Assembly: GCF_031583025.1 (NCBI RefSeq)
Contig: NZ_CP134062.1
Location: 6,297,234 to 6,361,233 of the forward strand
Reading direction: 5' to 3'
DNA: 64,000 nucleotides
DNA from: Mycobacterium sp. Z3061
Lineage (GTDB): Bacteria; Actinomycetota; Actinomycetes; Mycobacteriales; Mycobacteriaceae
Both the position numbers and the translations under genes were made by a program. Below are positions 1,328 to 25,773 of the stretch, piece by piece. The notes beneath the pieces were generated by a model. The model was given only the letters and a program-made list of their open reading frames with translations, did not search any database and had not been told where the DNA came from. Position 1 is the first letter of the stretch. Every line of letters begins with the position of its first letter.

Positions 1328-1381
1328 ACAGCATTTAAGCTGGTAGAACGCTCGAACAGGGGCGCGGATTGGGGGGAACCA

Positions 1382-2086: not shown

Positions 2087-2100
2087 CGTGCCCGGCCTTC

Positions 2101-2106
2101 TAAGCT
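2101..2106 (+). promoter_or_regulatory. -10 element of a leaderless promoter for pxpA
   Basis: TAAGCT fits the mycobacterial -10 consensus TANNNT and ends six bases before the GTG start at 2113. This would place the transcript start at or next to the start codon. There is no ribosome-binding site in the gap, which fits leaderless translation. Confidence 0.5.
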
Positions 2107-2112
2107 GGCAAG

Positions 2113-2871: not shown

Positions 2872-3791
2872 TGCGACTGAAACTCGGCCGCCCCGACCTC
2901 ACTCAACATACCGGAAAATTCAATGTTCCTGCGGCAGGACAGGATTCGCTACTCTGGGTGACCTGGATGGGGGTGGCCACACTGCTCGTCGACGACGGCA
3001 CCTCGGCGTTGATGACCGACGGCTACTTCTCCCGCCCCGGTCTGGCCTCGGTGGCAGCCGGGAAGGTGGCGCCCTCGGAGGCCCGCGTCGACGGGTGTCT
3101 GGCCCGGGCCAAGGTATCGCGGCTCGCCGCCGTCATCCCGGTGCACACGCATATCGACCACGCGCTCGACTCTGCCCTGGTGGCCGACCGCACCGGCGCC
3201 CAACTCGTCGGCGGCGAATCGGCGGCCAATCTGGGCCGCGGATACGGACTCCCGGCGGAGCGGATCGTCGTGGCGGCGTCCGGTGTGCCAATGACCCTGG
3301 GCGCCTACGACGTAACGCTGATCGAGTCGCACCACTGCCCGCCCGACCGGTTTCCGGGCGCGATCAGCGCTCCGGTGCGACCGCCGGTGAAGGCCTCGGC
3401 CTACCGCTGCGGCGAAGCATGGTCGGCACTGATACAACACCGGCCGTCCGGCCGGCGGCTGCTCATTCAGGGCAGCGCCGGCTACGTCGCGGGTGCGCTG
3501 GAAGGCATGAGTGCCGATGTCGTCTACCTCAGCGTCGGACAGCTCGGCCTGCAACCTCGGTCCTACATCACCGAATACTGGGATCAGACGGTGCGGGCGG
3601 TGGGCGCGCGCCGCGTCATCGGCATCCACTGGGACGACTTCTTCCGTCCGCTGACAGAGCCGTTGCGGGCCTTGCCTTTTGCGGGTGACGACCTGAACGT
3701 GTCGATGCGGCTGCTGGACGAGCTGGCTGCGCGGGACGGCGTTGTCCTGCAGTTGCCCACCGTCTTCCGGCGCGAAGACCCCTGGGCATAG
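2871..3791 (+). CDS. MBL-fold metallo-hydrolase (Rv3577-like)
   Basis: Protein of 306 aa with a metallo-beta-lactamase fold. The core metal motif reads HTHIDHALD (about residues 86-94), the HxHxDH pattern, followed by a second metal-binding region around ESHHCPPDRFPG and a late HWDDFF segment. It starts in a TGATG overlap with pxpA, and the next gene begins four bases after its stop, so it is central in an operon. By position it matches Rv3577. No N-terminal signal is obvious. The substrate cannot be told from sequence. Confidence 0.85.
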   Translation: MRLKLGRPDLTQHTGKFNVPAAGQDSLLWVTWMGVATLLVDDGTSALMTDGYFSRPGLASVAAGKVAPSEARVDGCLARAKVSRLAAVIPVHTHIDHALDSALVADRTGAQLVGGESAANLGRGYGLPAERIVVAASGVPMTLGAYDVTLIESHHCPPDRFPGAISAPVRPPVKASAYRCGEAWSALIQHRPSGRRLLIQGSAGYVAGALEGMSADVVYLSVGQLGLQPRSYITEYWDQTVRAVGARRVIGIHWDDFFRPLTEPLRALPFAGDDLNVSMRLLDELAARDGVVLQLPTVFRREDPWA

Positions 3792-3794
3792 ACG

Positions 3795-5036
3795 TTGCTA
3801 CTAGTCCTCTCGCTGGTATTGCTGGCGGTCGTACTGGGGTTTGCTGTCGCGCGCCCCAGGGGCTGGCCGGAGGCGGCGGCAGCCGTTCCGGCCGCGGCTG
3901 TGCTGATCGCGGTCGGGGCGATCTCGCCGCACCAGGCGGGTGCCCAGGTGTCTGGCCTGGCGCGGGTGGTCGCGTTTCTGGGCGCCGTACTGGTGCTGGC
4001 CAAACTGTGTGACGACGAGGGCCTGTTCGAGGCCGCCGGAGCGGCGATGGCGCGCGCCAGCTCCGGATCCCAGGGATTGCTGCGCCAGGTATTCGTCATC
4101 TCCGCCACCATCACCGCGGTGCTCAGCCTCGATGCCACCGTGGTGCTGTTGACCCCGGTGGTGCTGGCCACCGTTCGCCAGCTCCGGACCCCGGTGCCCC
4201 CATATGCGTATGCCACCGCTCATCTGGCGAACACCGCCTCGCTACTGCTCCCGGTGTCGAATCTGACCAACCTGCTCGTCTACCGCGGCGCGAACATCTC
4301 CTTCACCAAGTTCACCCTGCTGATGGCCCTGCCCTGGCTGAGCGCGGTCGCGACCGTCTACCTGGTCTTCCGGCTGTTCTTCGCCCGGGACCTGCGCACC
4401 CAGCCCGATCCCGAACATTCCGCGCCGCCACCGCGGCCGCCGGTATTCGTTCTGGCCGTCGTGGCGCTGACGCTGGTGGGATTCGCCGTGGCCGAATGGT
4501 TGGACATCGCACCCGCCTGGGCGGCGTTGGCCGGCGCTTCGGTGCTGGCGGTGCGCAGCCTGCGGCACCGGCGCACCACGGTAGGCGAGATCGCGGCTTC
4601 GGTGAACATCCCCTTCCTGGTTTTCGTCCTCGCGCTGGGCATCGTCGTGCAGGCCGTCATGCTCAACGGGATGACCGCCAGGATGTCCGCGTTGGTGCCG
4701 CACGGATCAGGCCTGGCCGCACTGCTGGGCATTGCGGCACTGGCTGCCGTGTTGGCCAATGTCGTCAACAACCTGCCTGCCACGCTGGTACTGGTGCCGC
4801 TGGTGGCTGCCAGCGGACCGGCGGCCGTGCTGGCGGTGCTGATCGGGGTCAACATCGGGCCCAACCTGACCTACGTCGGTTCCCTGTCCAATCTGTTGTG
4901 GCGCCGGGTGCTGCGCCAGTACCAGGTGCAGGCCGGAGCCGGCGAATACACCCGGCTCGGCTTGTGCACCGTGCCCGCCGCTCTGGTGGTGGCGGTGCTC
5001 GCACTCTGGGCGAGCGTCCAGGTCTTCGGGGTCTGA
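3795..5036 (+). CDS. arsB2: ArsB/SLC13-type membrane permease (ArsB2-like)
   Basis: Inner-membrane transporter of 413 aa with about ten hydrophobic segments. It matches the ArsB/NhaD/SLC13 (IT superfamily) group and, by position, Rv3578/arsB2. The conserved loops [17 protein letters not shown] and [10 protein letters not shown] are typical of the two hairpin regions of these carriers. The TTG start four bases after the preceding stop is the first start in frame and keeps the first membrane helix. No arsR or arsC is nearby, so arsenite export is only an annotation by family; another anion is equally possible. Confidence 0.82.
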
Positions 5037-5052
5037 CCTTTCGTGCGCGACC

Positions 5053-5100
5053 AGACGCAAAATCGCACGAAACGCGGACGTTTCCTGCGATTTCGCGTCT
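5053..5100. terminator. Long bipartite hairpin between convergent genes
   Basis: Two 15-nt arms (5053-5067 and 5086-5100) pair with one mismatch. Inside, after one unpaired base on each side, six-base arms GAAACG and CGTTTC (5069-5074 and 5079-5084) close on a 4-nt loop. It sits between the stops of the ArsB-type gene (+) and the PPE gene (-), where a two-way terminator is expected. No U-tract follows, as is common in mycobacteria. Confidence 0.6.
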
Positions 5101-5110
5101 GCTGGCCGTG

Positions 5111-6307
5111 CTAACCCGCCGCCGGCGGCCTCGTCATGAACGTCAGCCGGTGCCCATAGGCCGGAGTCCTGCGGCCGTTGCCGGCATTCACGAACTGCCC
5201 GAACGGCGGCGCCACCGGCACATTGCTGCCGACGGCCCCCTCTGCCGCTGCCGAGATCGAGGTGGCATTGCTGATCGCCGTCACCCCGGACCCGGCGGGG
5301 GCGGTCGCCGACGTCCAGCTCACCGGGACCGACAATCCGCTGCCGAGCGGAACCGCCTTGCCAAGGCCCGCCGCCACACCACCGACGCTGCTGGAGAGTT
5401 TGGGCAGGGCCCCGGCCGCGCCCCCAACGGCCGCCGGGACCTTCGGGAACGCGGGAGCCACATCATTCGCAAACGAGCCGAGCTTGGCGAAACCGGCCAT
5501 TTCGTCGCCAAGAAACAGCGTGCTCTGCAGCTCGTATGCCACCGAGTTCATGTAGGGCGAGATGTATTTGCTGTACAGCGGGACCAGGTCGTCGAACGGC
5601 GTGTTGGCGACAATCCACTGGTCGATCGCGTTGAACTGACCGTTGAGTGGCGAAGACAGCGTCTGCAACAAGTCGCCGAACCGCGGCATGATTTGTGCTC
5701 CTACGCTGTTGAGCTGGGCTTGCACAGCTTGGCCCGCGCCCTTGAACGCCCCGACGGCCTGGTCGACCAGGTTGAGCGGGTCGGTAGCATCGGCGGGCTG
5801 AGGCAGCTCGTTGAGCTGAGTTGCCGCCGCCGAGCTACCGGCATAGTTGTACATCGCCGCCGCGTCCTGAGCCCAGAACTCCATATAAAGAGCCTCAGTG
5901 GCCGCGATCGCCGGAGTGTTTATCCCCAGAAAGTTGGTCGCGACCAAAGCGGCCAGCAGTGCGCGGTTGGCCGCGATCACCGGCGGCGGAATCGACGCCG
6001 CGAAAGCCGTGTCGAAGGCAGCCGCGGCCGCGAAGGCCTGGGCAGCGGCCTGCCCGGCCTCCACGGCACCGCTGTCCAGCCAAGTGATGAACGGCGTCAC
6101 CGCCGACAGCAGCGACTCCGACGCAGGCCCCAGCCACGGACCGTTGGTGAGCTCGGCGATCACCGACCGGTGGCCGGCCGCGGCGGTTTCGAAGTCGCCG
6201 GCCAGGCCACTCCACGCCGCCGCGGCAGCCAACATCGGGCCGGCCCCCGGACCGGCATATATGCGCCCGGAATTGATTTCGGGCGGCAACAGACCATAAT
6301 CGACCAT
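5111..6307 (-). CDS. PPE family protein, SVP subgroup
   Basis: Protein of 398 aa. The N-terminal PPE domain (about residues 1-180) begins MVDYGLLPPEINS and contains the GPWLGPAS WxG motif. The C-terminal half carries the SVP-subgroup signature GLSVPVSW (about 325-332) and ends in RPPAAG. It is the last gene of a PE-PPE-PPE operon and is a clear paralogue of the PPE gene before it; both share the SKYISPY segment. Such proteins are exported by ESX-5-type systems as heterodimers with a PE partner, here probably the PE at 7581-7880. The role in the cell envelope is unknown. Confidence 0.93.
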   Translation of the reverse strand: MVDYGLLPPEINSGRIYAGPGAGPMLAAAAAWSGLAGDFETAAAGHRSVIAELTNGPWLGPASESLLSAVTPFITWLDSGAVEAGQAAAQAFAAAAAFDTAFAASIPPPVIAANRALLAALVATNFLGINTPAIAATEALYMEFWAQDAAAMYNYAGSSAAATQLNELPQPADATDPLNLVDQAVGAFKGAGQAVQAQLNSVGAQIMPRFGDLLQTLSSPLNGQFNAIDQWIVANTPFDDLVPLYSKYISPYMNSVAYELQSTLFLGDEMAGFAKLGSFANDVAPAFPKVPAAVGGAAGALPKLSSSVGGVAAGLGKAVPLGSGLSVPVSWTSATAPAGSGVTAISNATSISAAAEGAVGSNVPVAPPFGQFVNAGNGRRTPAYGHRLTFMTRPPAAG

Positions 6308-6340
6308 CGCGTGTTATCCCCGTTGCGTTGATCGGCCGGG

Positions 6341-7549
6341 TTAACCGGCGGCTGGCGGCTTGGCCATGACCGAGGGCTTGAACCCGTATTGCGGGACATT
6401 GCGGCCGTAACCGCCATTGACGAACTGTCCGAACGGCGGTGCCATCGGAAAGCTGTTACCGCCTTCGACCGCGGCCGGGATCGCCGATGCGATGCCCGGA
6501 TTGGTGGTCGCGTGCCAGGGCACCCAGTTCGCGGGAACCGCCAAGCCACCGATCGCCGTCGCCTTACCCAGGCTGCCGGCCACGCCACCGAGACCGGCGC
6601 CCAGGTTGCCCGCGGCCTGCCCAGCAGCCGCTGCCGCCGCAGGGGCCGCTTCGGCGGCAGCCGAAGCGGCGGCCTTCGCGGCGGCAGCGGCATCCTTGTT
6701 GAGCGTGTTCGCAATGCCCGCGAGGCCGGTGAAACCGCTGGTGTTCTGCCCGATCGTCTGCGTCGACTGGGTCAGGGCCGCGACTGAGTTGATGTACGGC
6801 GAGATGTACTTGCTGTAGAGCGGGACGATGTCGTCGAGCGGGGTGTTGGCCACGATCCACGCGTCGATCGCTGCGCCCTGACCGTTCAACGGCGTGGACA
6901 GGGTCTTGACCACGTCGCTCACGCGGGGGCCCACCGTTGCGCCGAGGTTGTTCAGCTGGGTTTGAACACCCGAACCCGCGGCCTTGAACGCCCCGATCCC
7001 CTGGTCGAGGAAGCCGAGCGGGTCGACCGCATCGGCCGGTGCCGCAAGTGGCCTCAAATTCGTTGCGGCTGAGGCACTTCCGGCGTAGTTGTACATCGCT
7101 CCCGCGTCTTGCGCCCAGAATTCGCCGTATTGGGCTTCGAGCATCGAGATCGCCGAACTGTTCTGGCCGAGCAGGTTTGTGGCGATCAACTGCTGGAGCA
7201 TGGCGCGGTTGGCCGTAATCAGCGGCGGCGGGACGCTGCCCGCAAACGCCCTCTCGTATGCGGCCGCCGCGGCGGCCGCCTGCGTTGCAGTCTCGGCAGC
7301 CTGCTCGGAGCTGTTGCTGAGCCAGGTGATGAAGGGCGAGACAGACGAAACCAGCTTCGCCGATGCCGGCCCGAGCCAGGGACCGCTCGTCAGCGCCTCG
7401 ATCACCGAGCGGTGCCCCGAGGCCGCCGCCGCGAAGTCGGCGGCCACGTTGTTCCAGGCCACCGCCGCGCTCACCAGTGAGGCTGCCCCGGGCCCGGCGT
7501 AGATCCGCGCCGAATTGATCTCGGGCGGCAGCATTCCGTAGTCGACCAT
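6341..7549 (-). CDS. PPE family protein, SVP subgroup (paralogue of the next PPE)
   Basis: Protein of 402 aa starting MVDYGMLPPEINS, with the WxG motif GPWLGPAS in the PPE domain and the SVP-type segment GGLAVPANW near residue 340. A low-complexity alanine block lies around residues 280-315. It is the middle gene of the operon, 31 bases after the PE stop, and its product is the likely dimer partner of that PE protein. Similarity to the PPE at 5111-6307 along the full length indicates tandem duplication of the PPE gene after the PE-PPE pair was formed. Confidence 0.93.
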   Translation of the reverse strand: MVDYGMLPPEINSARIYAGPGAASLVSAAVAWNNVAADFAAAASGHRSVIEALTSGPWLGPASAKLVSSVSPFITWLSNSSEQAAETATQAAAAAAAYERAFAGSVPPPLITANRAMLQQLIATNLLGQNSSAISMLEAQYGEFWAQDAGAMYNYAGSASAATNLRPLAAPADAVDPLGFLDQGIGAFKAAGSGVQTQLNNLGATVGPRVSDVVKTLSTPLNGQGAAIDAWIVANTPLDDIVPLYSKYISPYINSVAALTQSTQTIGQNTSGFTGLAGIANTLNKDAAAAAKAAASAAAEAAPAAAAAAGQAAGNLGAGLGGVAGSLGKATAIGGLAVPANWVPWHATTNPGIASAIPAAVEGGNSFPMAPPFGQFVNGGYGRNVPQYGFKPSVMAKPPAAG

Positions 7550-7580
7550 TGCTCTTACTCCCCTATCGCCTCAGGCCCGC

Positions 7581-7880
7581 TCAGTGGGCCAACGCGGCGT
7601 TGGCCGCCTCGGTCTCGGCGTAGCTGGCCCCGTTGGTGGCCAGGTTCGCGGCGATCATTGCCTGGATCCTGGACGCCTGCGCGCTCAGTTCCTGGAATCG
7701 CTGGCCGTGCGACGCGAACTGAGCCGCGGTCAGGATCGACACCTCGTCGATGGCCGCGGGAATCACCCCGGTGATGGGTCCGGCAGCGGCTGCGCTGCCC
7801 ACGTTCATCGCCGCGCCCAGGGACTGCAGGGTGCTGGAGGCGGCGGTCAAGTGCTCGGGCAGTGTGCGTACAAAAGACAT
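7581..7880 (-). CDS. PE family protein
   Basis: Short PE protein of 99 aa, the size of a PE domain with no extension. A longer reading upstream is rejected because the PE domain proper starts MSFVRTLPEHL at 7880 and is preceded by an excellent ribosome site (GGAGGAA, seven bases before ATG). The C-terminus has ASYAETEAANAA, the YxxxD/E type VII secretion signal. First gene of the PE-PPE-PPE operon. Confidence 0.93.
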   Translation of the reverse strand: MSFVRTLPEHLTAASSTLQSLGAAMNVGSAAAAGPITGVIPAAIDEVSILTAAQFASHGQRFQELSAQASRIQAMIAANLATNGASYAETEAANAALAH

Positions 7881-8248
7881 GAGAATTCCTCCGGCGGTTG
7901 TGTGGAATTGGGGCTCAACACCCAGATCAGTTGTCCGTGTATTGCCGTTGATCTTCAGACGGCGCCTACGGTTATCGCTCGATCTGACACCAGAAAGCGC
8001 GCGATGATACACCGCTAGTTGTCACTGGTCCATAGCTTTCGGGCCACCCCATGCGAAAGACAGTAGATCCAGAGCGAAGACACAGAAACCGATAACGCCA
8101 ACTATTCACCGCTTGCAAACTTTTGTTCAGCGTGCGTTAAACAAGAAGGCAGAATTTAAATCATGACCTGCGGAAATGGGGTCGAGGGCCGCCCCCGGCA
8201 GACCGTCTGGTCGGCCTCCAAAATTCTTTGAGTTCACTATGTCGACAC

Positions 8249-8273
8249 GATTCCTGTGAGTTCTCACAGAATC
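8249..8273. repeat. 25-nt imperfect palindrome (possible operator)
   Basis: The core CTGTGAG-tt-CTCACAG is a perfect 7-nt inverted repeat with a 2-nt spacer, and outer GATT/AATC extends it with one extra base on the left. It lies between the end of rlmB and the PE-PPE-PPE operon, 369 bases upstream of the PE start. The short spacer fits a dimeric regulator site better than a terminator. Function inferred only from symmetry. Confidence 0.45.
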
Positions 8274-8314
8274 ATGGAGCGTAGTGTTCCGCCCTCTTCG
8301 ATCGGTGATGTTGT

Positions 8315-8346
8315 GACGCCGTGCGGCAATGCCGTGCGGCGGCGTC
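8315..8346 (-). terminator. Possible terminator hairpin after rlmB
   Basis: GACGCC (8315-8320) can pair with GGCGTC (8341-8346), directly after the rlmB stop. The loop holds a repeated TGCCGTGCGG-like sequence. No U-tract follows; weak support. Confidence 0.3.
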
Positions 8347-8348
8347 GC

Positions 8349-9278
8349 TCAGCTTCTGCGTTGCCGCGCGATTTCGGCGAGCACCACGCCGGCCGCCACC
8401 GCGGCGTTCAGCGACTCGGCCTGCCCGGCCATCGGGATGGAGACCACCTCGTCGCAGTTCTGCCGCACCAGGCGGGACAAGCCTTTGCCTTCCGAACCCA
8501 CGACGACCACCATCGGGTCGGTGCCGTCCAGGTCGTCCAACACCGTGTCACCACCGGCGTCCAGTCCGACGACCCGCAATCCGCGATCGGCCCAATCCTT
8601 CAGTGTCCTGGTCAGATTGGTCGCCCGCGCCACGGGGATCCGGGCCGCCGCCCCGGCGCTGGTGCGCCACGCGACGGCGGTCACCGAGGCGGATCGCCGT
8701 TGCGGTATCACCACACCGTGCCCGCCCAGGGCCGCCACCGAGCGCACGATCGCGCCGAGGTTGCGCGGGTCGGAGATGTTGTCCAACGCGACCAGTAACG
8801 CCGGCGGGCTTTCCAGGGCGCTGGCGACAAGGTCATCGGGGTGGGCGTAGTCGTAGGGCGGAACCTGCAGAGCGATCCCCTGGTGAAGATGGTTGGCCGT
8901 CATCCGGTCGAGATCGCTGCGCGGCACCTCCAGAATCGCGATGCCCTTGTCGGCGGCGCGTGCCACGGATTCGGTCACCCGCTCGTCGGCCTCTACTCCG
9001 AGCGCGACGTAGAGCGCGGTCGCGGGAACCCCGGCGCGCAGGCATTCCACCACGGGGTTCCGGCCGAGCACGGTCTCGACCTCGTCCACCGGCTTGGCCG
9101 GCCGCTGCTGTTGGGGTTTGCCGCGTCTGGCGGCGGGGTGGTTGGGACGCATGTGCGCGGGCGGTGTCGGACCACGGCCTTCCAGACCGCGACGGCGCTG
9201 CCCGCCCGAGCCGACCGTGGGCCCCTTCTTGGAGCCGGCTTTCCGGATCGCACCCCGACGCTGTGAATTACCGGCCAT
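8349..9278 (-). CDS. rlmB: 23S rRNA 2'-O-methyltransferase, TrmH/SPOUT family (RlmB-like)
   Basis: Protein of 309 aa. An arginine- and glycine-rich N-terminal stretch of about 70 residues precedes an L30e-like substrate-binding domain ([11 protein letters not shown]) and a SPOUT catalytic domain with the trefoil-knot motifs [24 protein letters not shown] and [15 protein letters not shown]. This pattern fits RlmB, which methylates G2251 of 23S rRNA, and the position matches Rv3579c. It lies just downstream of cysS on the same strand, in the same order as in M. tuberculosis. Target nucleotide is by family only. Confidence 0.9.
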
Positions 9279-16700: not shown

Positions 16701-17342
16701 CTAGACGGCCTGTTCCTGTGGCGCCTGCTCCCCGATGTCGCCGATGTGGTCGACCAGCTCCGCCTTACCCTCGGCGAGCTGGTAGGTGACGCCGGCGAGC
16801 GCCAGCGTGCCTTCGGCAACCCGATCCGCGATGGTCGAGGAACGGGCCGCGAGTTGCTTGAGCGTCTCACTCACATGCCGTTCCTCGAACTCGTCGACAC
16901 GGGTCAGGCCCTCGCGCCGGCCGGCCAGCACCGACGGAACCACGCGTTCCACCACGTCGCGGACGAAGCCGCCCGGGATCGCGCCGTTGTCCAGGGCGTC
17001 GATGGTCGCCTTCACGGCCCCGCAGCTGTTGTGACCGAGTACGACGATCAGCGGGACGTTGAGCACCGCGACCGCGTACTCGATGGATCCGAGCACCGCC
17101 GAGTCGATGGCCTGCCCCGCGGTACGGACCACGAAGACGTCGCCGAGGCCTTGGTCGAAGATGAGTTCGGCGGCCACCCGGCTGTCGGCACAACCGAAGA
17201 TCACGGCGGTCGGCTTCTGACCGCCGGCCAGACTGGCTCGGTGGTCGATGCTCTGGCTCGGGTGGGCGGGCTTGCCGGCGACGAATCGCTCGTTACCCTC
17301 TTTGAGTGCTTTCCAGGCGCTTATCGGGTTGCTGTTGGGCAT
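16701..17342 (-). CDS. canB: Zinc beta-carbonic anhydrase CanB
   Basis: Enzyme of 213 aa interconverting CO2 and bicarbonate. With the start at 17342 the zinc ligands fall at C51, H104 and C107 and the Asp-Arg dyad at D53-R55 (GCADSRV and LGHNSCG), the same numbering as reported for Rv3588c. An ATG three codons upstream (17351) is an alternative. The start codon overlaps the mutY start on the other strand within CATG. A degenerate homologue of this enzyme lies at 22944-23555 in the neighbouring island, and a bicarbonate-pump operon begins one gene away. Confidence 0.95.
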   Translation of the reverse strand: MPNSNPISAWKALKEGNERFVAGKPAHPSQSIDHRASLAGGQKPTAVIFGCADSRVAAELIFDQGLGDVFVVRTAGQAIDSAVLGSIEYAVAVLNVPLIVVLGHNSCGAVKATIDALDNGAIPGGFVRDVVERVVPSVLAGRREGLTRVDEFEERHVSETLKQLAARSSTIADRVAEGTLALAGVTYQLAEGKAELVDHIGDIGEQAPQEQAV

Positions 17343-18255
17343 GTCAGCCATTCTGCCGGAACTGCCCGGGTCAGGCCCAGTGAACATATCGGTCACCAAT
17401 CTTGTCGCTTGGTACGAGCGGTCGCGTCGGGACCTGCCCTGGCGTGAGCCGGGGGTCAGCGCCTGGCAGATCCTGGTCAGCGAATTCATGCTGCAGCAGA
17501 CGCCGGTGTCCCGGGTGCTGCCGATCTGGACCGAGTGGGTGCGCCGCTGGCCCACCCCATCGGCGACGGCGGCGGCCAGCGCCGCCGACGTCCTGCGGGC
17601 CTGGGGCAAGCTGGGTTATCCCCGGCGGGCCAAGCGCTTGCACGAGTGCGCCGTCGTCATCGCCCGCGAGCACGGCGACGTTGTCCCCGACGACGTGGAA
17701 ACGTTGCTGACACTGCCGGGCGTCGGTAGCTACACCGCCCGGGCGGTGGCCTGCTTCGCGTATCGACAGCGAGTTCCAGTGGTGGACACCAATGTTCGGC
17801 GCGTGGTGGCCCGCGCCATTCACGGGCGGGCCGACGCGGGCAACCCGTCGGCCACCCGCGATCATGCCGACGTCGAAGCTCTGCTGCCCAATGATGATGT
17901 CGCGCCTACGTTTTCGATTGCGCTGATGGAGCTTGGCGCGACGGTCTGCACGGCGCGCACACCCAAGTGCGGCCTGTGCCCGCTGCCGGCCTGCGCGTGG
18001 CGCGACGCGGGGTCTCCGGCCGGCGACACTCTGCCACGGCGGGCACAGTCTTACGCCGGGACCGACCGGCAGGTTCGCGGTCGGTTGCTGGATGTGTTGC
18101 GCGACAACAGCTCTCCGGTCACCCGAGCGCAGTTGGACGTGGCGTGGCTGACCGATACCGCACAGCGCGATCGCGCTCTGTATTCGCTGCTTGTCGACGG
18201 CCTGGTCACCCAGACGGCGGACGGGCGATTTGCGTTGGCGGGCGAGGGGCAGTAG
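17341..18255 (+). CDS. mutY: A/G-specific adenine glycosylase MutY
   Basis: MutY of 304 aa, the length remembered for Rv3589. It removes A mispaired with 8-oxoG. The HhH motif LPGVGSYTARAV is followed by the catalytic-Asp segment VVDTNVRRV; a four-cysteine iron-sulfur cluster motif (C-x6-C-x2-C-x4-C in VCTARTPKCGLCPLPAC) and a C-terminal NUDT1-like part follow. An upstream reading that would extend into canB is rejected on length. Start codon shared with canB in CATG. Confidence 0.95.
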   Translation: MSAILPELPGSGPVNISVTNLVAWYERSRRDLPWREPGVSAWQILVSEFMLQQTPVSRVLPIWTEWVRRWPTPSATAAASAADVLRAWGKLGYPRRAKRLHECAVVIAREHGDVVPDDVETLLTLPGVGSYTARAVACFAYRQRVPVVDTNVRRVVARAIHGRADAGNPSATRDHADVEALLPNDDVAPTFSIALMELGATVCTARTPKCGLCPLPACAWRDAGSPAGDTLPRRAQSYAGTDRQVRGRLLDVLRDNSSPVTRAQLDVAWLTDTAQRDRALYSLLVDGLVTQTADGRFALAGEGQ

Positions 18256-18338: not shown

Positions 18339-18356
18339 CACGAAATATATTTCGTG
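18339..18356. promoter_or_regulatory. Perfect 18-bp palindrome upstream of the DAB operon promoter
   Basis: CACGAAATATATTTCGTG reads identically on both strands. It ends four bases before a consensus -35 box, the usual place for an activator site or an upstream operator. The DNA here is much richer in A+T than the flanks. The candidate binder is the winged-helix protein encoded at 24549-24887 (inference). Confidence 0.6.
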
Positions 18357-18360
18357 ATGT

Positions 18361-18390
18361 TTGACAGACGTATTTTGTCTCACGTAATCT
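18361..18390 (+). promoter_or_regulatory. Sigma-A-type promoter of the dabBA operon
   Basis: TTGACA (18361-18366) and TAATCT (18385-18390) are separated by 18 bases, a near-consensus housekeeping promoter, rare in mycobacteria. Predicted transcription start is near 18397, giving a 5' leader of about 45 bases before dabB. Confidence 0.65.
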
Positions 18391-18441
18391 GCATCGCATG
18401 TACCTCGGACATCTGATAGCACGAAGGGCGGTGGCTGACCA

Positions 18442-20019
18442 ATGACCGCCGTCCTCCTCACCGTTCTGATTGCGCCTCTGCTCGCATCCGTCATCGCCCT
18501 GCTGGCCGGTGACCGGCGTACCCGGCTGGTCGGCCGATTCGGCGCCGCGACCGCCGCTTCGGGACTGGTCGCGGCCGCTGCCTTGAGCGTTCAGGTAGTG
18601 CTGCACGGGCCGATACACGCCTCGCTGCGTACTGACCACGGCACCCTCATCGGCGAGGTGAGCGCCGGCCGGCTCAGCGCCCTGCTTCTGGTGCTGGTGT
18701 ACGGAGTGAGCACGGTCGTTCAACTGTTCGCCCTGCGCTACCTCGCCTGCGACCGCCGGTCGGGCTGGTTCACCGCCGGGACCGGATTGCTCACCACCGC
18801 GTCCGCCGGCCTGATGATTTCGGGAACTCTGATCGCCTTGGCCTTCTGCTGGACCTTGGCCGGGACGGCGTTGTGCCTGCTCCTTGCGACCTACTGGGAA
18901 TTGCCGGCTGCCCGCGACGGTGTGCGACGCACCGCGACCGCATTCGCGCTGGGCGATCTCGCGCTGTGGTCGGCGGTCGGGTTGGTGACCATGCAGTGGG
19001 GGAATCGAAGCCTGTCCGAGTTGACGGTCGACAAAGACGCTTCACCGACGATGCTGGTCGCCGCAGTCCTGATCGTGGTGGCTGCCCTGTCCCGGTCCGC
19101 GCAGATTCCGTTTCACCGCTGGTTGCCGGCCACCCTCGCGGCACCTACCCCGGTGTCGGCCTTGCTGCACGCCGGTGTGGTCAACGCCGGGGGTGTGCTG
19201 CTGGTCCGGTTGAGCCCGATCGTCAGCGGATCGGCGCTGGCTATGGGTATAGCGTTCACCGCCGGCATGCTGAGCATGGTCTACGGGGCCCTGGTGATGC
19301 TCACCAAGTCCGACATCAAGGGCTCGTTGGCATATTCGACGATGGCCCAAATGGGCTTCATGATCTTGACCTGCGGCTTGGGGCTGTCCGCCGCGGCGGT
19401 CTTCCACCTGGTCGGGCACGGCTTTTACAAGGCCACGCTCTTCTTGTCCTCGGGCTCGGCGATCGCCAAGCGGCGCCAGAAGGCCGCTCGCCCGCCCGCG
19501 CCGCCGCTGAGCCCTACCCGACGTGCAGCGGTACTCGTCACTGCGATTCTGGTGCCCGCGGCCGCACTGTACGCAGCCGACGCCGTGATGCCGTTGCACA
19601 CGGCAGAGCACGGTTCGGCAGAGGCGCTGGTGATCTTCACCTGGGCCACCGCCGCGGCGGCACTGATGGGCTGGCTGGCGCGATCACCCCATTGGCCGGC
19701 AGTCTTCGCCGCCGGCGTAGCGCTGCTCGGCGCGGGCGTCGGCTACCTAGCGCTGGTCAACCTGGTGACCGGGTTCCTCTCTCCCGATCTGCCGCCGGTC
19801 GCCGTGCCATCGGCCTCTTCGTTGGGCATCGCCGCAGCGGCGGTCGTACTCGGCGCCCTGGCCCTGCTGCGCCAAGCTCCCCCCGATGGCTGGGCCGGCC
19901 GTTTGCAGCGTGCCCTCTACACCAAAGCGCTTGTAGCAGGACATGTCTCAGCGATACGCCCACAGCAGATCCCCACCCCGACCCACTTGACCGCACAGCT
20001 GACAGGAGCGCACCGATGA
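18442..20019 (+). CDS. dabB: DabB: NuoL/MrpA-like proton-conducting subunit of a bicarbonate pump
   Basis: Polytopic membrane protein of 525 aa in the proton_antipo_M family. It keeps the family signatures RSAQIPFHRWLPATLAAPTP and SDIKGSLAYSTMAQMGF, with the membrane Lys used for proton translocation in NuoL/M/N. No other complex I or Mrp genes are present; instead its stop overlaps the start of a DUF2309 gene (ATGA), the DabB-DabA arrangement described for DAB inorganic carbon pumps. In that model, proton entry through DabB drives CO2 hydration in DabA to accumulate bicarbonate. The start ATG at 18442 lies about 45 bases after the predicted transcription start. Confidence 0.88.
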   Translation: MTAVLLTVLIAPLLASVIALLAGDRRTRLVGRFGAATAASGLVAAAALSVQVVLHGPIHASLRTDHGTLIGEVSAGRLSALLLVLVYGVSTVVQLFALRYLACDRRSGWFTAGTGLLTTASAGLMISGTLIALAFCWTLAGTALCLLLATYWELPAARDGVRRTATAFALGDLALWSAVGLVTMQWGNRSLSELTVDKDASPTMLVAAVLIVVAALSRSAQIPFHRWLPATLAAPTPVSALLHAGVVNAGGVLLVRLSPIVSGSALAMGIAFTAGMLSMVYGALVMLTKSDIKGSLAYSTMAQMGFMILTCGLGLSAAAVFHLVGHGFYKATLFLSSGSAIAKRRQKAARPPAPPLSPTRRAAVLVTAILVPAAALYAADAVMPLHTAEHGSAEALVIFTWATAAAALMGWLARSPHWPAVFAAGVALLGAGVGYLALVNLVTGFLSPDLPPVAVPSASSLGIAAAAVVLGALALLRQAPPDGWAGRLQRALYTKALVAGHVSAIRPQQIPTPTHLTAQLTGAHR

Positions 20020-22604
20020 CCATCGTCGCTGAACACGTCTCGATCGACGCGCTGCGTGCCCAGCTACGCAGCGAGGTGAATCTGGCCGCGCGGGTGGTTC
20101 CCACCCACTACCCGCTGGAGACCTTCATCGCCGTCAACCCGCTGGCCGGACTGGAAGGTATGCCATTCGAGCAGGCGGTGCTGCGCGCCGGTGACCTCTA
20201 CGGTGTCGCGGGACTGCTCGATGAGACCGCCTACCGCGACCTTTACCACCGCGGACGGATCACCGACGCCGACCTCGAATCGGCACTGCGGCTGCGTTAC
20301 CCCACCCTGCTGGACGGAGAATCCATCCAGCTGGGTGCCCGGCGCGTGACACCTGCCGAGTTGTTGCGCGACGACCTGCTCAACGGCCGCGTCGCGCCCA
20401 AGCCGTTGCGCCGCAACAAGATGCGCAGTGAGCAACTCGCACCGCAGGTAGCCGAGGAGGTGGACGCTCAAGCCGCCAAATGGAGTACGGCATTCTTCGG
20501 ATCACCCGCGGCGGGTTGGCCGATGCCCGCGCGTGAACGAGGCTTCTTCCACGCCTGGCGGACTCTGGCCGCCGGCGATCACAAATTGAGACGAAAGGTC
20601 CGCGCCGCCCTACGCGAGGTGCCCGAACGAGCCGACGACGCTGCACTGCAGGCGCTGCGGCAACTGGGCGTCACCGACGACGAACGCATCACCTACCTGC
20701 AGGCGCATCTGACCCGCCTTCCCGGCTGGGCGGCGTACGTCCGTTGGTATGCCGAGCGGATGGTCGGCGCGGACCTCCTCGACTACCTGGCCCTGCGTCT
20801 GACCTACGAAGCATTGCTGCTGCCTGACAACGCTTCTGAGCCGGCCGCCGATGTCGACGCCATCGACCGCCCAGCCATCGCCTCCGCGGAGCAGCGGGCA
20901 GCGGATCTCGCGCGCATCTGGGGCCTGAACGAGTTGAGTGACGATGAGCTGGCTTCGGCCGCAAGGATCTTGGCAGCTCTTCCGGTCACGACCCGGCCGG
21001 TGGTTTGGCAACAGGCCTACGAGGCGCACTACCGCGACGCGCTGCTGAAGTCCTTGAGTGGCAGCACTACGCAGGGGTCCCACGGGCGGCCGCACATCCA
21101 ACTTGTGTGCTGCATCGACGCTCGGTCGGAAGGCCTGCGCCGGCGCATCGAAACCAAGGGCGGATACGAAACCCTCGGCTTTGCAGGGTTTTTCGCGGTC
21201 GCCATCCGGTTCACCGACCTGGTCGGCGGAGCACCCAACGAGCTGTGCCCGGTTCTGATTCGTCCCCAGCACGAAGTCCGCGAAAGCCCGGCACCCGAAG
21301 GTGTGCGTGCGGCCAAGCGGCTACGAGACGGCAGTGTCGTCATGGCCGGCGCCGAGGCCGCCTTCAACACCGCGAAGCAGGCACTTCTGGCGCCGTTCAC
21401 CCTGGCCGAGGCCTCTGGCTGGGCCGCCGGTCCATGGGCTGCCGCAAAGACGCTGAGCCCGAAAGCCAGCGGCACCCTGCGCCGGCGCCTGCGCGACCGG
21501 CTGGCCCCGCCCGCACCCACCGTTCTCTCCGTCAACGACAGCGTCGATCTGGCACAACGGGCCCTCTACGCTCAAGTGGCTCTCACCACCATGGGCCTCA
21601 CCAGCGGATTCGCCCGCCTGGTAGTGATGTGCGGACACGGCAGCACCACCGAGAACAACCCCTACCAGGCGGCGCTGGACTGCGGGGCGTGCGGCGGGCA
21701 ACCGGGTGGCCCCAACGCGCGAACCGCGGTCGCCATCCTCAACAACGCCGACGTCCGTGCGGAGTTGCGCGATATGGGGATCTCGATTCCAGAGGACACC
21801 TGGTTCGTCGCCGCTCTGCACGACACGGCCACGGACCGGGTTTCTGTCCTGGACGAGCACCTGGTCCCGGCGAGCCATGTGGCGGACCTGCGCCGGCTGA
21901 GCACCGATCTCGAGGTGGCCGGTGCGGAGTTGGCCGCCGAGCGCTGCGCCGTCCTACCCGGCGGCCCGGCCCGGCCGGACCCGACGCGGGCAGCGCGGCA
22001 CGTCGCCAACCGCTCCGCCGACTGGGCGCAGGTCTTTCCCGAATGGGGGCTGGCCGGCAACGCTGCCTTCATCGTCGGGCCCCGCGACCTCAGCAGCGGC
22101 CTCGACCTGGGGCGACGGACCTTCCTGCACTCCTACGAAGCTGACGTCGACCCGGACGGCAGCGCGTTGGAGACGATCCTGACCGCCCCCATGGTCGTGG
22201 CCCAGTGGATCAGTTGTCAGTACTACTTCTCGACGGTTGCGCCGGAGCTGTTCGGAGCGGGGACCAAGACCGTCCACAACGTGGTCGCCGGAGTGGGCGT
22301 GCTCGCCGGCCACGGCGGTGACCTGCAGCTGGGACTGCCTCGCCAATCGGTTACCGACGGTCAGACGTTCGGGCACGAGCCGATGCGCCTGCTGACCGTC
22401 GTCCAGGCCCCGCTCGAGCGAATCGACATGATCGTCGACCGCAACCCCGTCCTCCAGCATCTGTTCGGAAACGACTGGGTAGCCCTCGCGGCCCGCGAAA
22501 AGCCGGGAGACGACTGGCAGCGCTGGACTCGCAACGGCTGGCGGAGCTGGGAATCGGGAGTCGAAAAGCACAACGCAACTGAGGAGGTATTGCCATGCCG
22601 CTGA
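20016..22604 (+). CDS. dabA: DabA: DUF2309 carbonic-anhydrase-like subunit of a bicarbonate pump
   Basis: Protein of 862 aa (DUF2309). It has the DabA zinc-site pattern: CID at residues 366-368 (VCCIDARSEG) and H541 followed 15 residues later by C556 (CGHGSTTENNP through DCGACGG), the same spacing as the C351, D353, H524, C539 set reported for the Halothiobacillus protein. This site resembles that of beta-carbonic anhydrases. The true start is ATG 20016, overlapping the dabB stop, with AGGAG seven bases before; a much longer open frame upstream runs antisense-like through dabB and is discarded. No membrane helices; expected to sit on the cytoplasmic side of DabB. Confidence 0.9.
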   Translation: MTIVAEHVSIDALRAQLRSEVNLAARVVPTHYPLETFIAVNPLAGLEGMPFEQAVLRAGDLYGVAGLLDETAYRDLYHRGRITDADLESALRLRYPTLLDGESIQLGARRVTPAELLRDDLLNGRVAPKPLRRNKMRSEQLAPQVAEEVDAQAAKWSTAFFGSPAAGWPMPARERGFFHAWRTLAAGDHKLRRKVRAALREVPERADDAALQALRQLGVTDDERITYLQAHLTRLPGWAAYVRWYAERMVGADLLDYLALRLTYEALLLPDNASEPAADVDAIDRPAIASAEQRAADLARIWGLNELSDDELASAARILAALPVTTRPVVWQQAYEAHYRDALLKSLSGSTTQGSHGRPHIQLVCCIDARSEGLRRRIETKGGYETLGFAGFFAVAIRFTDLVGGAPNELCPVLIRPQHEVRESPAPEGVRAAKRLRDGSVVMAGAEAAFNTAKQALLAPFTLAEASGWAAGPWAAAKTLSPKASGTLRRRLRDRLAPPAPTVLSVNDSVDLAQRALYAQVALTTMGLTSGFARLVVMCGHGSTTENNPYQAALDCGACGGQPGGPNARTAVAILNNADVRAELRDMGISIPEDTWFVAALHDTATDRVSVLDEHLVPASHVADLRRLSTDLEVAGAELAAERCAVLPGGPARPDPTRAARHVANRSADWAQVFPEWGLAGNAAFIVGPRDLSSGLDLGRRTFLHSYEADVDPDGSALETILTAPMVVAQWISCQYYFSTVAPELFGAGTKTVHNVVAGVGVLAGHGGDLQLGLPRQSVTDGQTFGHEPMRLLTVVQAPLERIDMIVDRNPVLQHLFGNDWVALAAREKPGDDWQRWTRNGWRSWESGVEKHNATEEVLPCR

Positions 22605-22918
22605 ATGGCCTGACAAAAATGACGAAAATCGAAGTGGTGGTGGGCGGCGATCACGCGTCCGCGGTTCGCGACCAATTCCACAGCGCAGGCGCCACCGGGT
22701 TCACCAGTGTCTCGGGCGTCTCTGGGCTCGGGCATCACGGCTATCACCAGGGCCGGCTGCTCTTCAACCAGCAAGCGGCACTCGAAATGCTCATCACCGT
22801 CGTGCCGGACACCAAGTCAGAGGCACTGGTAGCCGGATTACGACGGCTACTCGAGGGTTCGCCGGGGGTCATGTTCGTGACCGACACCTACGTCAGCCGG
22901 CCCGAGTACTTCAGCTGA
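22595..22918 (+). CDS. PII-like small signalling protein
   Basis: Protein of 107 aa with a ferredoxin-like alpha/beta pattern: a first strand IEVVVGG, a helix, a flexible middle loop rich in Gly/His (SGVSGLGHHGYHQGR) where PII proteins have the T-loop, then a second half (ALEMLITVVPDTKSEALVAGLRRLL) and a last strand VMFVTDTYVSRP. It overlaps the end of dabA by ten bases and has the strongest ribosome site of the operon (GAGGAGGT). PII-like proteins are known partners of carbon transporters, where they sense adenine nucleotides or bicarbonate. Family assignment is by pattern, and the ligand is unknown. Confidence 0.72.
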   Translation: MPLNGLTKMTKIEVVVGGDHASAVRDQFHSAGATGFTSVSGVSGLGHHGYHQGRLLFNQQAALEMLITVVPDTKSEALVAGLRRLLEGSPGVMFVTDTYVSRPEYFS

Positions 22919-22943
22919 AACCAACCACAGAAAGGTAACGAAA

Positions 22944-23555
22944 ATGTCCAACCCCACTTCCGCCTGGCAGGGCCTGCAAGCCGGAAATCAGCACTTCCAC
23001 AACACCTTGCGCAAGCAGCACAGCGTCGCCAACGGACAGCCGCCCGCCGCCGTCGTGTTCCGCTCCGCAGATTCCGACGTGCCGAGCCAGGTGGTGTTCG
23101 GTCAGAGCTGGGGCTCGATCATCGACGTCAGCAACTGGGGACACGTCATCGACACCGGCGTGCTGGCCACCCTCGAGTACGCCGTCGGCACCCTCAAGAC
23201 GCCGTTGATCGTCATCCTCGGCCACTCGGACTCCAGCGCCATGCAGACGGCCCTCGATGCCTGGAACAACGCCAACTTCCCCGACGGCGCCACGCGTGCC
23301 GTCGTCGAACAGGCGGTTTCCTCCCTGGCCCGCGCCGACGCCGGCATCAATACCGCCGACGATCTGACGGCCGCTCACGTGGCACACGTCGGGGTGTCGC
23401 TGCTGCACAAATCGCCGCTGGTCGCCAAGGCGGTCGACAGCGGACGGTGTGCAATCGTCGCCGCCCTACTCGACCGTGCGGACGGTCGGGTCCAGGTCTG
23501 CGGGACCATCGGGCAGGTTTCCGACAACGAGACACCGTTGCTGCGGGTCGTGTAA
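22944..23555 (+). CDS. Beta-carbonic-anhydrase homologue lacking its zinc ligands
   Basis: Protein of 203 aa aligning with CanB from end to end (SAWQGLQAGNQHF; GVLATLEYAVGTLKTPLIVILGHSD). At the active site, the first zinc Cys is Ser41, the second is Ser97, and the catalytic Arg of the Asp-Arg dyad is Asp45 (SADSDV against CADSRV in CanB). Only Asp43 and His94 remain. It cannot bind zinc in the usual way and is probably not a carbonic anhydrase. The frame is intact, has a good ribosome site (AAAGG), and lies 25 bases after the PII-like gene, so it is not a decayed gene. A regulatory or structural role in the pump is my inference. Confidence 0.85.
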   Translation: MSNPTSAWQGLQAGNQHFHNTLRKQHSVANGQPPAAVVFRSADSDVPSQVVFGQSWGSIIDVSNWGHVIDTGVLATLEYAVGTLKTPLIVILGHSDSSAMQTALDAWNNANFPDGATRAVVEQAVSSLARADAGINTADDLTAAHVAHVGVSLLHKSPLVAKAVDSGRCAIVAALLDRADGRVQVCGTIGQVSDNETPLLRVV

Positions 23556-23616
23556 GAAGTGCGAGCTGCCGGGCCCGGCGGATTCCGCCGAGCCCGGCCG
23601 CCTGCTGGAACCTCTG

Positions 23617-24465
23617 ATGAACGCACCCATTGACTCCTACGCCGGGACGGTGATCGCGATGGGCACCATGCACGGCAAAGAGCGGCAGGTGGCGCCGGCC
23701 TTCGCCGCAGAGATCGGTGCCCGGGTGATCGCCCCGCCAGGCATCGACACCGACCAGTTCGGCACCTTTGCCGGTGAGATCACCAGGACGCTGGCGCCGG
23801 TGGCAGCGGCCTCGGCGAAGGCCCGGTTGGCCATGAGCGCGGCCGGAGTGCCCTACGGAGTGGCCAGCGAAGCCAGCTACGACACGTGGTACGGCATGCT
23901 GGCCGTGCACCAGGAGATTCTGGTGTTCGTCGACGACACCCGGGGCATTCAGGTGGTGGAAGGTGTGAACATCCCACGTACCCCCGGCCCGCCGAAATTG
24001 GTCATGAGCGGCCATGAAGCCGTCGACGCCGCGCGACACTTCGGGTTCCCCGAGCAGGGAGCGGTCGTCAAAGCCACCGTCGAAGGGGATACGCGCGTTT
24101 TCGGCAAGGGACTCACGGATGCTTTCGCTCTCGTCGAGATCGTCGACAACGCCGTGGCGGCCGCGGACAACCGGTGCGCCCTGCTGGAACCCGACCTCCG
24201 GGCACATCACAACCCGGGGCGCCGGGAAGTCCTGTCCGCCCTGGCCAATCGACTCGCCGGCCGGCTCGCCACCCCGTGCCCAGGGTGCATGTCACCTGGA
24301 TACGGGCGGGTCGCGGTCCGCGAAGGGTTACCGTGCCGAGCATGCGGGTCGCCCACCACACTCGTCGCGGCCGACATCCTCGGCTGCCCGGCGTGTGACC
24401 ACCACAGCGAGGATGCCCGCGGCGGGCTGGCGGAGCCACGCTACTGCCCCGAATGCAACCCCTAA
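23617..24465 (+). CDS. DUF6671-type protein with C-terminal zinc-ribbon cysteines
   Basis: Protein of 282 aa. The N-terminal two thirds start GTVIAMGTMHGKERQVAP and contain FGTFAGEITRTL, which I recognise as the DUF6671 family. The C-terminus has four CxxC pairs (C221/C224, C240/C243, C257/C260, C277/C280), enough for two zinc ribbons. ATG 23617 is chosen because conservation begins there; upstream codons overlap the preceding gene in another frame. It follows 61 bases after the carbonic-anhydrase-like gene on the same strand, probably the last gene of the operon. Biochemical function is unknown. Confidence 0.75.
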   Translation: MNAPIDSYAGTVIAMGTMHGKERQVAPAFAAEIGARVIAPPGIDTDQFGTFAGEITRTLAPVAAASAKARLAMSAAGVPYGVASEASYDTWYGMLAVHQEILVFVDDTRGIQVVEGVNIPRTPGPPKLVMSGHEAVDAARHFGFPEQGAVVKATVEGDTRVFGKGLTDAFALVEIVDNAVAAADNRCALLEPDLRAHHNPGRREVLSALANRLAGRLATPCPGCMSPGYGRVAVREGLPCRACGSPTTLVAADILGCPACDHHSEDARGGLAEPRYCPECNP

Positions 24466-24477
24466 CGGCGATCGCAA

Positions 24478-24524
24478 GCGCGGCGTTGCCGCGCGTAGCG
24501 GGTCGTTGCCGCGCGTAGCGGGTC
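24478..24524. terminator. Hairpin and 20-bp tandem repeat between convergent genes
   Basis: GCGCGGC-gtt-GCCGCGC (24478-24494) is a perfect 7-bp hairpin. It overlaps two head-to-tail copies of a 20-base unit (24485-24504 and 24505-24524). Located between the DUF6671 gene (+) and the winged-helix gene (-), it probably ends transcription from both sides. Confidence 0.5.
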
Positions 24525-24548
24525 GCCGCAATCGGTCCTAGCGCCAGG

Positions 24549-24887
24549 TCAGGAGAGCGCGGTGACCAACTCACCGACGGTGTGGTTGGCTTCGAGCGGG
24601 TGTCGCAGCCTGCCTTCGGGGTTGACTTCGTAGACGTTGCGGCGGCCGACCTTCGACTTGATCAGGTAACCCTCGGCGGTCAGGTCGGTCAAGATGGCCT
24701 GTACCGAGCGCTCGGTGATACCGACCCGCAGGGCCAACTCGCGCGCCGTCAACTCTTCACCTGAGGAGATGCATATCAGGACGTGAGCGTGGTTGGTCAG
24801 AAACGTCCAGCTTCGGTCCTGCGGTTCGAGCACAGGCGGAGCAACTCCCCTGCGCTTTCCGGCCACAGACTTCCCGGCAACAGCCAC
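24549..24887 (-). CDS. Winged-helix transcriptional regulator (MarR/ArsR-like)
   Basis: Protein of 112 aa. After a basic 28-residue lead, a winged helix-turn-helix runs from SWTFLTNHAHVL through ELALRVGITERSVQAILTDL (recognition helix) to a wing GYLIKSKVGRRNVYEVNP, then a short helix ending the protein. No metal or ligand cysteines are seen. GTG start is a guess; the ribosome site is poor. It points toward the DAB operon end (convergent) and is the only regulator in the island, so it is the prime candidate for the 18-bp palindrome before dabB. Confidence 0.75.
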   Translation of the reverse strand: MAVAGKSVAGKRRGVAPPVLEPQDRSWTFLTNHAHVLICISSGEELTARELALRVGITERSVQAILTDLTAEGYLIKSKVGRRNVYEVNPEGRLRHPLEANHTVGELVTALS

Positions 24888-24999: not shown

Positions 25000-25773
25000 T
25001 CACCGCTTACCGCCGGCCAGGAAAGATTCCACGGCCTGCCGGTAGGCCTCGGGCGCGTCGTCGTGCACCAGGTGCCCGGCCTCCGGGACCGCTAGATACG
25101 TTGTCGGGAAATCCCTTTGAGCCATCTGACGCATCTGGCCCGGCGGCGTGACGGTGTTGCCCGCCTCGATCAGCAGGGCCGGCGCGCGTACGCCGCGCCA
25201 CTGCGCCCAGTAGTCGCGGGTGCCCCACTCCGCGGCGATCTCAATCCATCGCTGGGGGTGCCCGTGCAGGCGCCAGCCCGTGTCGGTACGGTCGAACGCC
25301 TCCAGGAAGTACTGGCCGGCAACCGGACCGAATTCGGCGAATACCCTTTCAGCAGAATCGAATTCAACCGGCAGCGCGTGCAGCCAGGGCTCCCACGGCC
25401 CGGTGGTCCGCCCGACGAAATCCGGGGCCATGTCCTCCACCACCAGCGCGCTCACCAGGTCCGGCCGCTCGGCGGCCAGACACCAGGAGTGCAGGCCGCC
25501 CATCGAATGCCCGATCAGGACGACCTGGGCGTTCAGCGAGCCGACCGCATCGCCGAGATCGGCGACGAAACGTTCGGTGCTGATCGGGTAGGGGTCCTCG
25601 ACGTCACGCCCCCGGTGCCAGGGGGCGTCGTAGGTGTAGACCGCGCCCAGCCGGGTGAGCCACGGCAGCTGTCGCGGCCAGGTGGTGCCGCGTCCCATCA
25701 GTCCGTGTACCAGAACCAGCGGCCTGCCCGCTCCGCCGCGATGGGTCAGCAGATCGGCGGCCATGTTCGGCAC
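25000..25773 (-). CDS. Alpha/beta-fold hydrolase (Rv3591c-like)
   Basis: Protein of 257 aa with an alpha/beta hydrolase fold: oxyanion region VHGLMGRGTTW, nucleophile elbow GHSMGG (Ser about residue 94), an acid in the later strand (LIEAGNTVTP region) and catalytic His in EAGHLVHDD. It diverges from mhuD with a 14-base gap and matches Rv3591c in position. Substrate unknown. Confidence 0.88.
   Translation of the reverse strand: MPNMAADLLTHRGGAGRPLVLVHGLMGRGTTWPRQLPWLTRLGAVYTYDAPWHRGRDVEDPYPISTERFVADLGDAVGSLNAQVVLIGHSMGGLHSWCLAAERPDLVSALVVEDMAPDFVGRTTGPWEPWLHALPVEFDSAERVFAEFGPVAGQYFLEAFDRTDTGWRLHGHPQRWIEIAAEWGTRDYWAQWRGVRAPALLIEAGNTVTPPGQMRQMAQRDFPTTYLAVPEAGHLVHDDAPEAYRQAVESFLAGGKR

Follow-up and report, generated by a model that had tools for sequence, protein, structure and literature searches.

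The stretch of DNA analysed here, hereafter the window, comprises 64,000 nucleotides of the genome of Mycobacterium sp. Z3061 (NZ_CP134062.1, positions 6,297,234 to 6,361,233 of the forward strand), the sequence of which is a single 6.79-Mb contig. The host species appears, from its sequence, to belong to the M. gordonae group. The window contains an island of six genes at 18442–24887 which likely encodes a working DAB-type inorganic carbon pump. Gene content, order and orientation are as described in an earlier annotation made from the letters alone (hereafter the sequence-only reading):

18442–20019, plus strand: dabB, a NuoL-like proton-conducting subunit (PF00361)
20016–22604, plus strand: dabA, the zinc vectorial carbonic anhydrase subunit, 862 amino acids (PF10070)
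22595–22918, plus strand: CPII-like gene of the PII family (PF00543; E value 9.2e-18)
22944–23555, plus strand: psCA, a protein with the beta-carbonic anhydrase (beta-CA) fold and without zinc cysteines (S41, D43, D45, H94, S97)
23617–24465, plus strand: DUF6671 gene
24549–24887, minus strand: winged-helix regulator, convergent (weak MarR/HTH matches)

The fourth product is the main subject of this report, and we read psCA as a pseudoenzyme that was recruited to the pump.

The product of dabA matches PF10070 with an E value of 3.5e-245, in a search for which the start of the query protein was set seven codons too late. At an E value of 0.01, its only match among solved structures is DabA2 of the Halothiobacillus neapolitanus DAB2 complex (PDB: 9rd0_A; E value 9.9e-114), and the best solved sequence match to DabB is DabB2 of the same complex (9rd0_B; E value 5.7e-39). 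The zinc-site residues C366, D368, H541, and C556, correctly numbered in the sequence-only reading, are present in DabA, as is R370, which completes an Asp-Arg dyad. Poor alignment around the zinc residues had been named beforehand as a way in which the pump assignment could fail. In a multiple alignment of 77 mycobacterial rows, in which, as in the 78 rows for DabB, certain genomes are duplicated owing to overlap between the unnamed and named sets, C366, D368, R370, and H541 are conserved in every row and C556 in 76. The proton-finger residue Glu465, corresponding to Glu444 in H. neapolitanus, is found in 76 of the 77 rows, with the segment FTLAEASGW matched to FTFVESAGL. An apparent absence of this Glu was rejected: pairwise alignment with DabA2 had paired another residue, and the multiple alignment places Glu465 at the position. 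All 78 DabB rows retain the proton-path residues S256, H260, K310, S316, H339, H343, K347, and D185 (DAB2 numbering). According to the excerpts of PMC13144422, H. neapolitanus DAB2 was impaired when the corresponding residues were changed to Ala. Because the zinc, dyad, and finger residues of DabA and the proton-path residues of DabB are kept, a functional DAB-type pump is likely.

The island thus resembles DAB2, as described in the available part of the same report, in its dabB-dabA unit, Cys2His zinc site, Asp-Arg dyad, finger Glu, and proton path. It differs from DAB2 at several positions: in DabB, all 78 mycobacterial rows have Arg for K235, a residue other than Arg for R182, and Thr or Ser for I151; in DabA, Phe or Tyr occupies the tunnel position R653 in 76/77. 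To the DAB2 pair the island adds the CPII-like protein, psCA, the DUF6671 protein, and the winged-helix protein.

The PII-like protein has only two matches among solved structures at an E value of 0.01, the 5d4n group (E value 2.4e-17 over 100 residues) and 5d4l. We take the 5d4n group, which the structure listing names P-II or GlnB, to be CPII, the bicarbonate-regulated, carboxysome-associated PII-like protein of Thiomonas intermedia. CPII binds adenine nucleotide and bicarbonate. Although it is the closest solved sequence, the gene in the island is linked to a DAB pump instead. The predicted model of the DUF6671 protein suggests a fold resembling HAM1/YjjX that carries an ATP-grasp-like insert, together with a tail rich in cysteines.

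The gene described as carbonic-anhydrase-like in the sequence-only reading is present and its product has the beta-CA fold, but the copy in the window has neither the zinc cysteines nor the dyad Arg. Compared with CanB, the Rv3588c-type beta-CA of M. tuberculosis (PDB: 1ym3, 2a5v), it has no equivalents of C51, R55, and C107: both zinc cysteines are replaced with Ser, while the His ligand is kept, and the dyad retains its Asp but has Asp in place of Arg. Positions R73, A75, and Q77 of CanB are occupied by S, W, and H. With the zinc ligands and the dyad Arg lost in this lineage, psCA is not to be credited with carbonic anhydrase (CA) activity. The CanB protein encoded in the flank of the island has all ligands intact (C51, D53, R55, H104, and C107). 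Among 66 psCA sequences, the dyad Arg is absent in 61, and both zinc cysteines are lost in all four from the gordonae group. At least 95% of the 66 share residues that are new relative to CanB, namely R73 to S, A75 to W, Q77 to H, and G50 to R. Phylogenetically, psCA forms a single clade (support 100/100) placed within mycobacterial CanB, with a long stem branch (1.5). The ratio of nonsynonymous to synonymous substitution rates (dN/dS) of the zinc-less psCA was 0.069 and 0.157, against 0.100 and 0.165 for dabA, which indicates purifying selection. M. gordonae CTRI 14-8773 has a psCA protein that differs from that of the window at 1 of 203 residues. Tandem copies also occur: psCA is duplicated in G026, and in the tandem pair at L032:11413-12856 the second copy has lost one zinc Cys yet carries the dyad Arg.

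Gene content, conserved residues, constraint, and ancestry can be read directly from sequence, and so can co-occurrence. The mycobacterial search and neighbourhood table proposed with the sequence-only reading were carried out. DabA was found in 33/148 Mycobacterium genomes, in keeping with the earlier description of the island as accessory. Of 396 genomes drawn from the phylum, 23 had a DabA match: Z3061 itself, a second member of its genus, and 21 whose relationship is at phylum level only. A psCA profile built from 16 sequences gave strong matches of at least 268 bits, followed by a gap, the remainder scoring 191 bits or less; the latter were taken as CanB and other carbonic anhydrases. The 32 strong matches, none with an in-frame stop, lie in 31 of the 148 genomes, that is, in 31/33 with DabA and 0/115 without it (Fisher p 7e-30, a value overstated since the genomes are related). 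Of the two DabA genomes in which psCA was not found, G139 has a contig end at that point and G074 has dabA in two pieces, with the PII-like gene and psCA missing. A homologue of the winged-helix protein (E value <1e-20) accompanies DabA in 32/33 genomes and is present in 7/115 of the others.

A scan of contigs, which requires one of two short peptide patterns so that distant relatives may escape it, returned 54 psCA loci from records titled Mycobacterium, Mycolicibacterium, Mycobacteriaceae, or unclassified actinobacteria. The order dabB-dabA-PII-psCA occurs at 46 of them, including L074, where dabA is broken. Six of the remaining eight are cut by contig ends, L087 has only the end of dabA before the PII-like gene and psCA, and L067 has no DAB genes. 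The division of dabA in two, seen at both L062 (in G074) and L074, suggests either pump loss in some species or assembly faults. At 9/54 loci there is also an unlabelled family which, judged from its sequence, is TerC-like in appearance.

The island lies between mutY and an Rv3591c-like gene, as the sequence-only reading had placed it. The names canB, mutY, and Rv3591c are our presumptive assignments, supported by Pfam matches:

16701–17609, minus strand: canB (Rv3588c-like), open reading frame as listed, the true CA start lying further inside it (PF00484; E value 2.5e-38)
17248–18255, plus strand: mutY
25000–25773, minus strand: alpha/beta hydrolase, the Rv3591c-like gene

The distance from canB to the Rv3591c-like gene is about 7.8 kb in the window. 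Among nine of the 115 DabA-less genomes that were compared, the first five by eye, it is 0.90–0.94 kb in five (G007, G045, G046, G108, and G117) and 2.3–5.5 kb in four (G071, G023, G105, and G064). At many loci the block is located elsewhere, since neither mutY nor the Rv3591c-like gene is on the fetched stretch. A mosaic pattern, indicative of recombination, is also apparent in synonymous divergence (dS). Relative to L065, dS is 0.15–0.22 from dabB to psCA, 0.52 for the DUF6671 gene, 0.76 for the winged-helix gene, and 0.37–0.52 for the flanks (mutY, canB, and the Rv3591c-like gene); relative to L066, it is 0.73–0.78 for dabB, dabA, and the PII-like gene, 0.30 for psCA, and 0.45–0.53 for the flanks.

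Related gene sets are carried on plasmids. A mobilizable 23.7-kb plasmid of Mycolicibacterium aubagnense (NZ_CP122998.1) holds the same block of regulator, DUF6671, dabB, dabA, PII-like, and CA-like genes, in which added TerC and CBS-domain genes separate the regulator from the DUF6671 gene (L166:1381-2974). Unlike psCA of the window, its CA-like protein keeps the C, D, R, H, and C residues. A plasmid of Nocardia cyriacigeorgica carries genes for DUF6671, a winged-helix protein, a Sua5-type threonylcarbamoyl-AMP synthase (L167:2055-3233), DabB, DabA, and a PII-like protein with 66% identity to that of the window. Sua5-type synthases use bicarbonate. No CA-like gene is annotated in 14.5 kb of this plasmid, the gene table of which is itself incomplete. 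The PII-like gene adjoins dabA without a CA gene on the Nocardia plasmid and in 4/21 other Actinomycetota genomes; a CA gene adjacent to dabA was found in none of the 21 genomes examined outside the mycobacteria, most of which are in many contigs. Rhodococcus plasmids encode carbonic anhydrases with matches to psCA of about 37%, among the best 15 of the 118 records. We regard the gene set as mobile.

We propose, at a probability of roughly two in three, that the island encodes a DAB-type pump with a CPII-like tuner and with psCA as a non-catalytic partner; the direction of transport, the partners, the sensing, and the regulation are what we infer beyond the gene content. Proton entry via DabB would drive DabA, a membrane-held zinc enzyme that would convert CO2 to bicarbonate in one direction, such that bicarbonate accumulates in the cell. 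The accumulated bicarbonate would supply carboxylases, perhaps including RuBisCO in Z3061 after a normal CA has reconverted it to CO2. Tuning of the pump probably falls to the CPII-like protein, as a sensor of adenine nucleotide and bicarbonate, and control of the dabB promoter probably falls to the winged-helix protein. A copy of CanB would have been recruited in mycobacteria with loss of the Asp-Arg dyad and, in the lineage of the window, of the zinc site too. Binding to the pump or to CPII, in a regulatory or structural capacity, is the most likely role of its product, which as a non-catalytic protein could not leak bicarbonate to CO2. The case for the partner role is made by linkage, loss of catalytic residues, and constraint, from which contacts with the pump may be deduced. 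A narrower version, to which we give a little less than an even chance, holds that a copy of the housekeeping CA became a dedicated non-catalytic DAB partner, which may read the bicarbonate or CO2 level or keep DabA or CPII in a particular state, and that the M. gordonae group dropped the zinc site.

Several observations weigh against this proposal. Cys, His, and Cys are all present in 61/66 psCA sequences, so that zinc binding and weak activity are possible in most members, and 5/66 retain the dyad Arg. Relative to distant lineages (L068, L070, L077, and L091), psCA evolves faster than dabA, with dN/dS of 0.28–0.42 and 0.17–0.24, respectively. Z3061 has three other Pro_CA genes, so that a dead psCA does not prevent leak via a normal CA. 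On one short contig of a metagenome-assembled genome, psCA lies directly after mutY (L067:2443-3054) with no DAB genes on the contig; psCA therefore may not strictly need an adjacent pump. The same metagenome-assembled genome has a second psCA, with DAB genes, at L076. Finally, a case for Na+ coupling has been made for the S. aureus homologue MpsAB (quoted in the excerpts of PMC13144422), and sequence alone does not reveal coupling.

Among the alternatives, the one that fares best, although we consider it rather unlikely, is that in Z3061 the main recipient of the pumped carbon is RuBisCO, in support of lithoautotrophic growth and as part of a simple CO2-concentrating system. A 16-kb stretch of the genome (L151, 4338000-4354000) encodes the large and small RuBisCO subunits, a cbbX-like AAA protein, a LysR protein, transketolase, class-I aldolase, and both NiFe hydrogenase subunits, which indicates a potential for lithoautotrophy. 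In the part of a JCM strain survey available (PMC12999727), seven Mycobacterium species are given as potential autotrophs and one Mycolicibacterium is listed as growing on hydrogen. Together, these genes and the survey make heterotrophic, the term applied to the genus in the sequence-only reading, an unsafe label for this host. RuBisCO is also present in 4/4 searched genomes with zinc-less psCA (G000, G006, G047, and G120), but these are close kin and may represent one event. Across the 148 genomes, six have both DAB and RuBisCO, 27 DAB only, 15 RuBisCO only, and 100 neither; RuBisCO thus occurs in 6/33 genomes with DabA and 15/115 without it, and the two show no association (Fisher p 0.57). 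Because DAB is not tied to RuBisCO genus-wide, the supply of bicarbonate to carboxylases suggested in the sequence-only reading survives as the more general explanation, with RuBisCO a possible customer of the pump in Z3061 itself.

Next, and somewhat less probable, psCA might be a working enzyme with an altered site, either a slow CA or a hydrolase for some other small carbon or sulfur compound, which aids the pump by its own chemistry. The lineage of the window, however, has lost both cysteines and yet is under purifying selection much like that on dabA. Furthermore, the Arg missing from the dyad in most psCA sequences is one whose change to Ala impaired DabA2, according to the excerpts of PMC13144422.

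We regard as improbable a further possibility, that the complex acts as a Na+/bicarbonate symporter in the manner suggested for S. aureus MpsAB (PMC6689103; summarised in PMC13144422, both as excerpted) rather than as a proton-driven CO2 hydratase. MpsAB is a DAB homologue which, according to the parts available of PMC6689103 and PMC8552792, has a role at air CO2 in a non-autotrophic host. Against this precedent, the zinc site, dyad, and proton-finger Glu match those of DAB2, which by the excerpted account in PMC13144422 failed to rescue a Na+-transport mutant. S. aureus is reported, in the excerpts of PMC8567241, to have MpsAB without any CA, unlike Z3061 with its additional Pro_CA genes. That psCA is a decaying CanB copy carried as a passenger in the operon, as its stem branch and its elevated dN/dS relative to the four distant lineages might suggest, is very improbable given its presence in nearly all DabA genomes, the absence of stops, the shared new residues, and a dN/dS of 0.07–0.16 in the zinc-less clade.

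The region upstream of dabB contains the following candidate control elements:

18339–18356, no strand: perfect palindrome of 18 bp, CACGAAATATATTTCGTG, located upstream of the dabB promoter and a candidate operator; its first base is also that of the interval given in the sequence-only reading
18361–18390, plus strand: dabB promoter-like sequence (TTGACA at 18361–18366, ACGTA repeats, TAATCT at 18385–18390)
18398–18445, plus strand: predicted 15-codon leader open reading frame, sharing 4 bases (ATGA) with the dabB start

The spaced promoter pattern is found in 42 of 47 dabB upstream regions, many of them from relatives, whereas base-shuffled regions give 0.1 of 47 on average, and its sole exact copy in the Z3061 genome is that of dabB itself. 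These features point to promoter function. A search of both strands of the genome with up to two mismatches gave four matches, one being the exact dabB copy, against eight in a reversed control, and thus no regulon in excess of chance. Imperfect versions of the palindrome precede dabB at L064, L065, L066, and L072; with so few of the 47 regions flagged, it appears limited to the gordonae group and L072. Its function as an operator, like the binding of the winged-helix protein to the promoter pattern, is a guess. The leader open reading frame could be leaderless, because its ATG sits 7 bases past TAATCT. In 9 of the 14 dabB upstream regions listed, a start codon occupies the identical position, at an offset of 47 bases.

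The pump type is known; the new part would be its pseudoenzyme partner, in the role we infer for it. In the literature searched, which includes the excerpts of PMC13144422, we found neither a pseudoenzyme control subunit for a CO2 pump nor a study of a mycobacterial DAB system. The control of DAB pumps appears to be an open question, on which a CA-derived, catalysis-stripped partner would give a direct handle, and psCA proteins that do or do not keep the cysteines in related species constitute a natural experiment. DAB genes are carried on plasmids of a Mycolicibacterium and a Nocardia. Moreover, a genome of the M. gordonae group that combines RuBisCO, hydrogenase, and a CO2 pump makes growth at low CO2 testable in environmental species of the genus.

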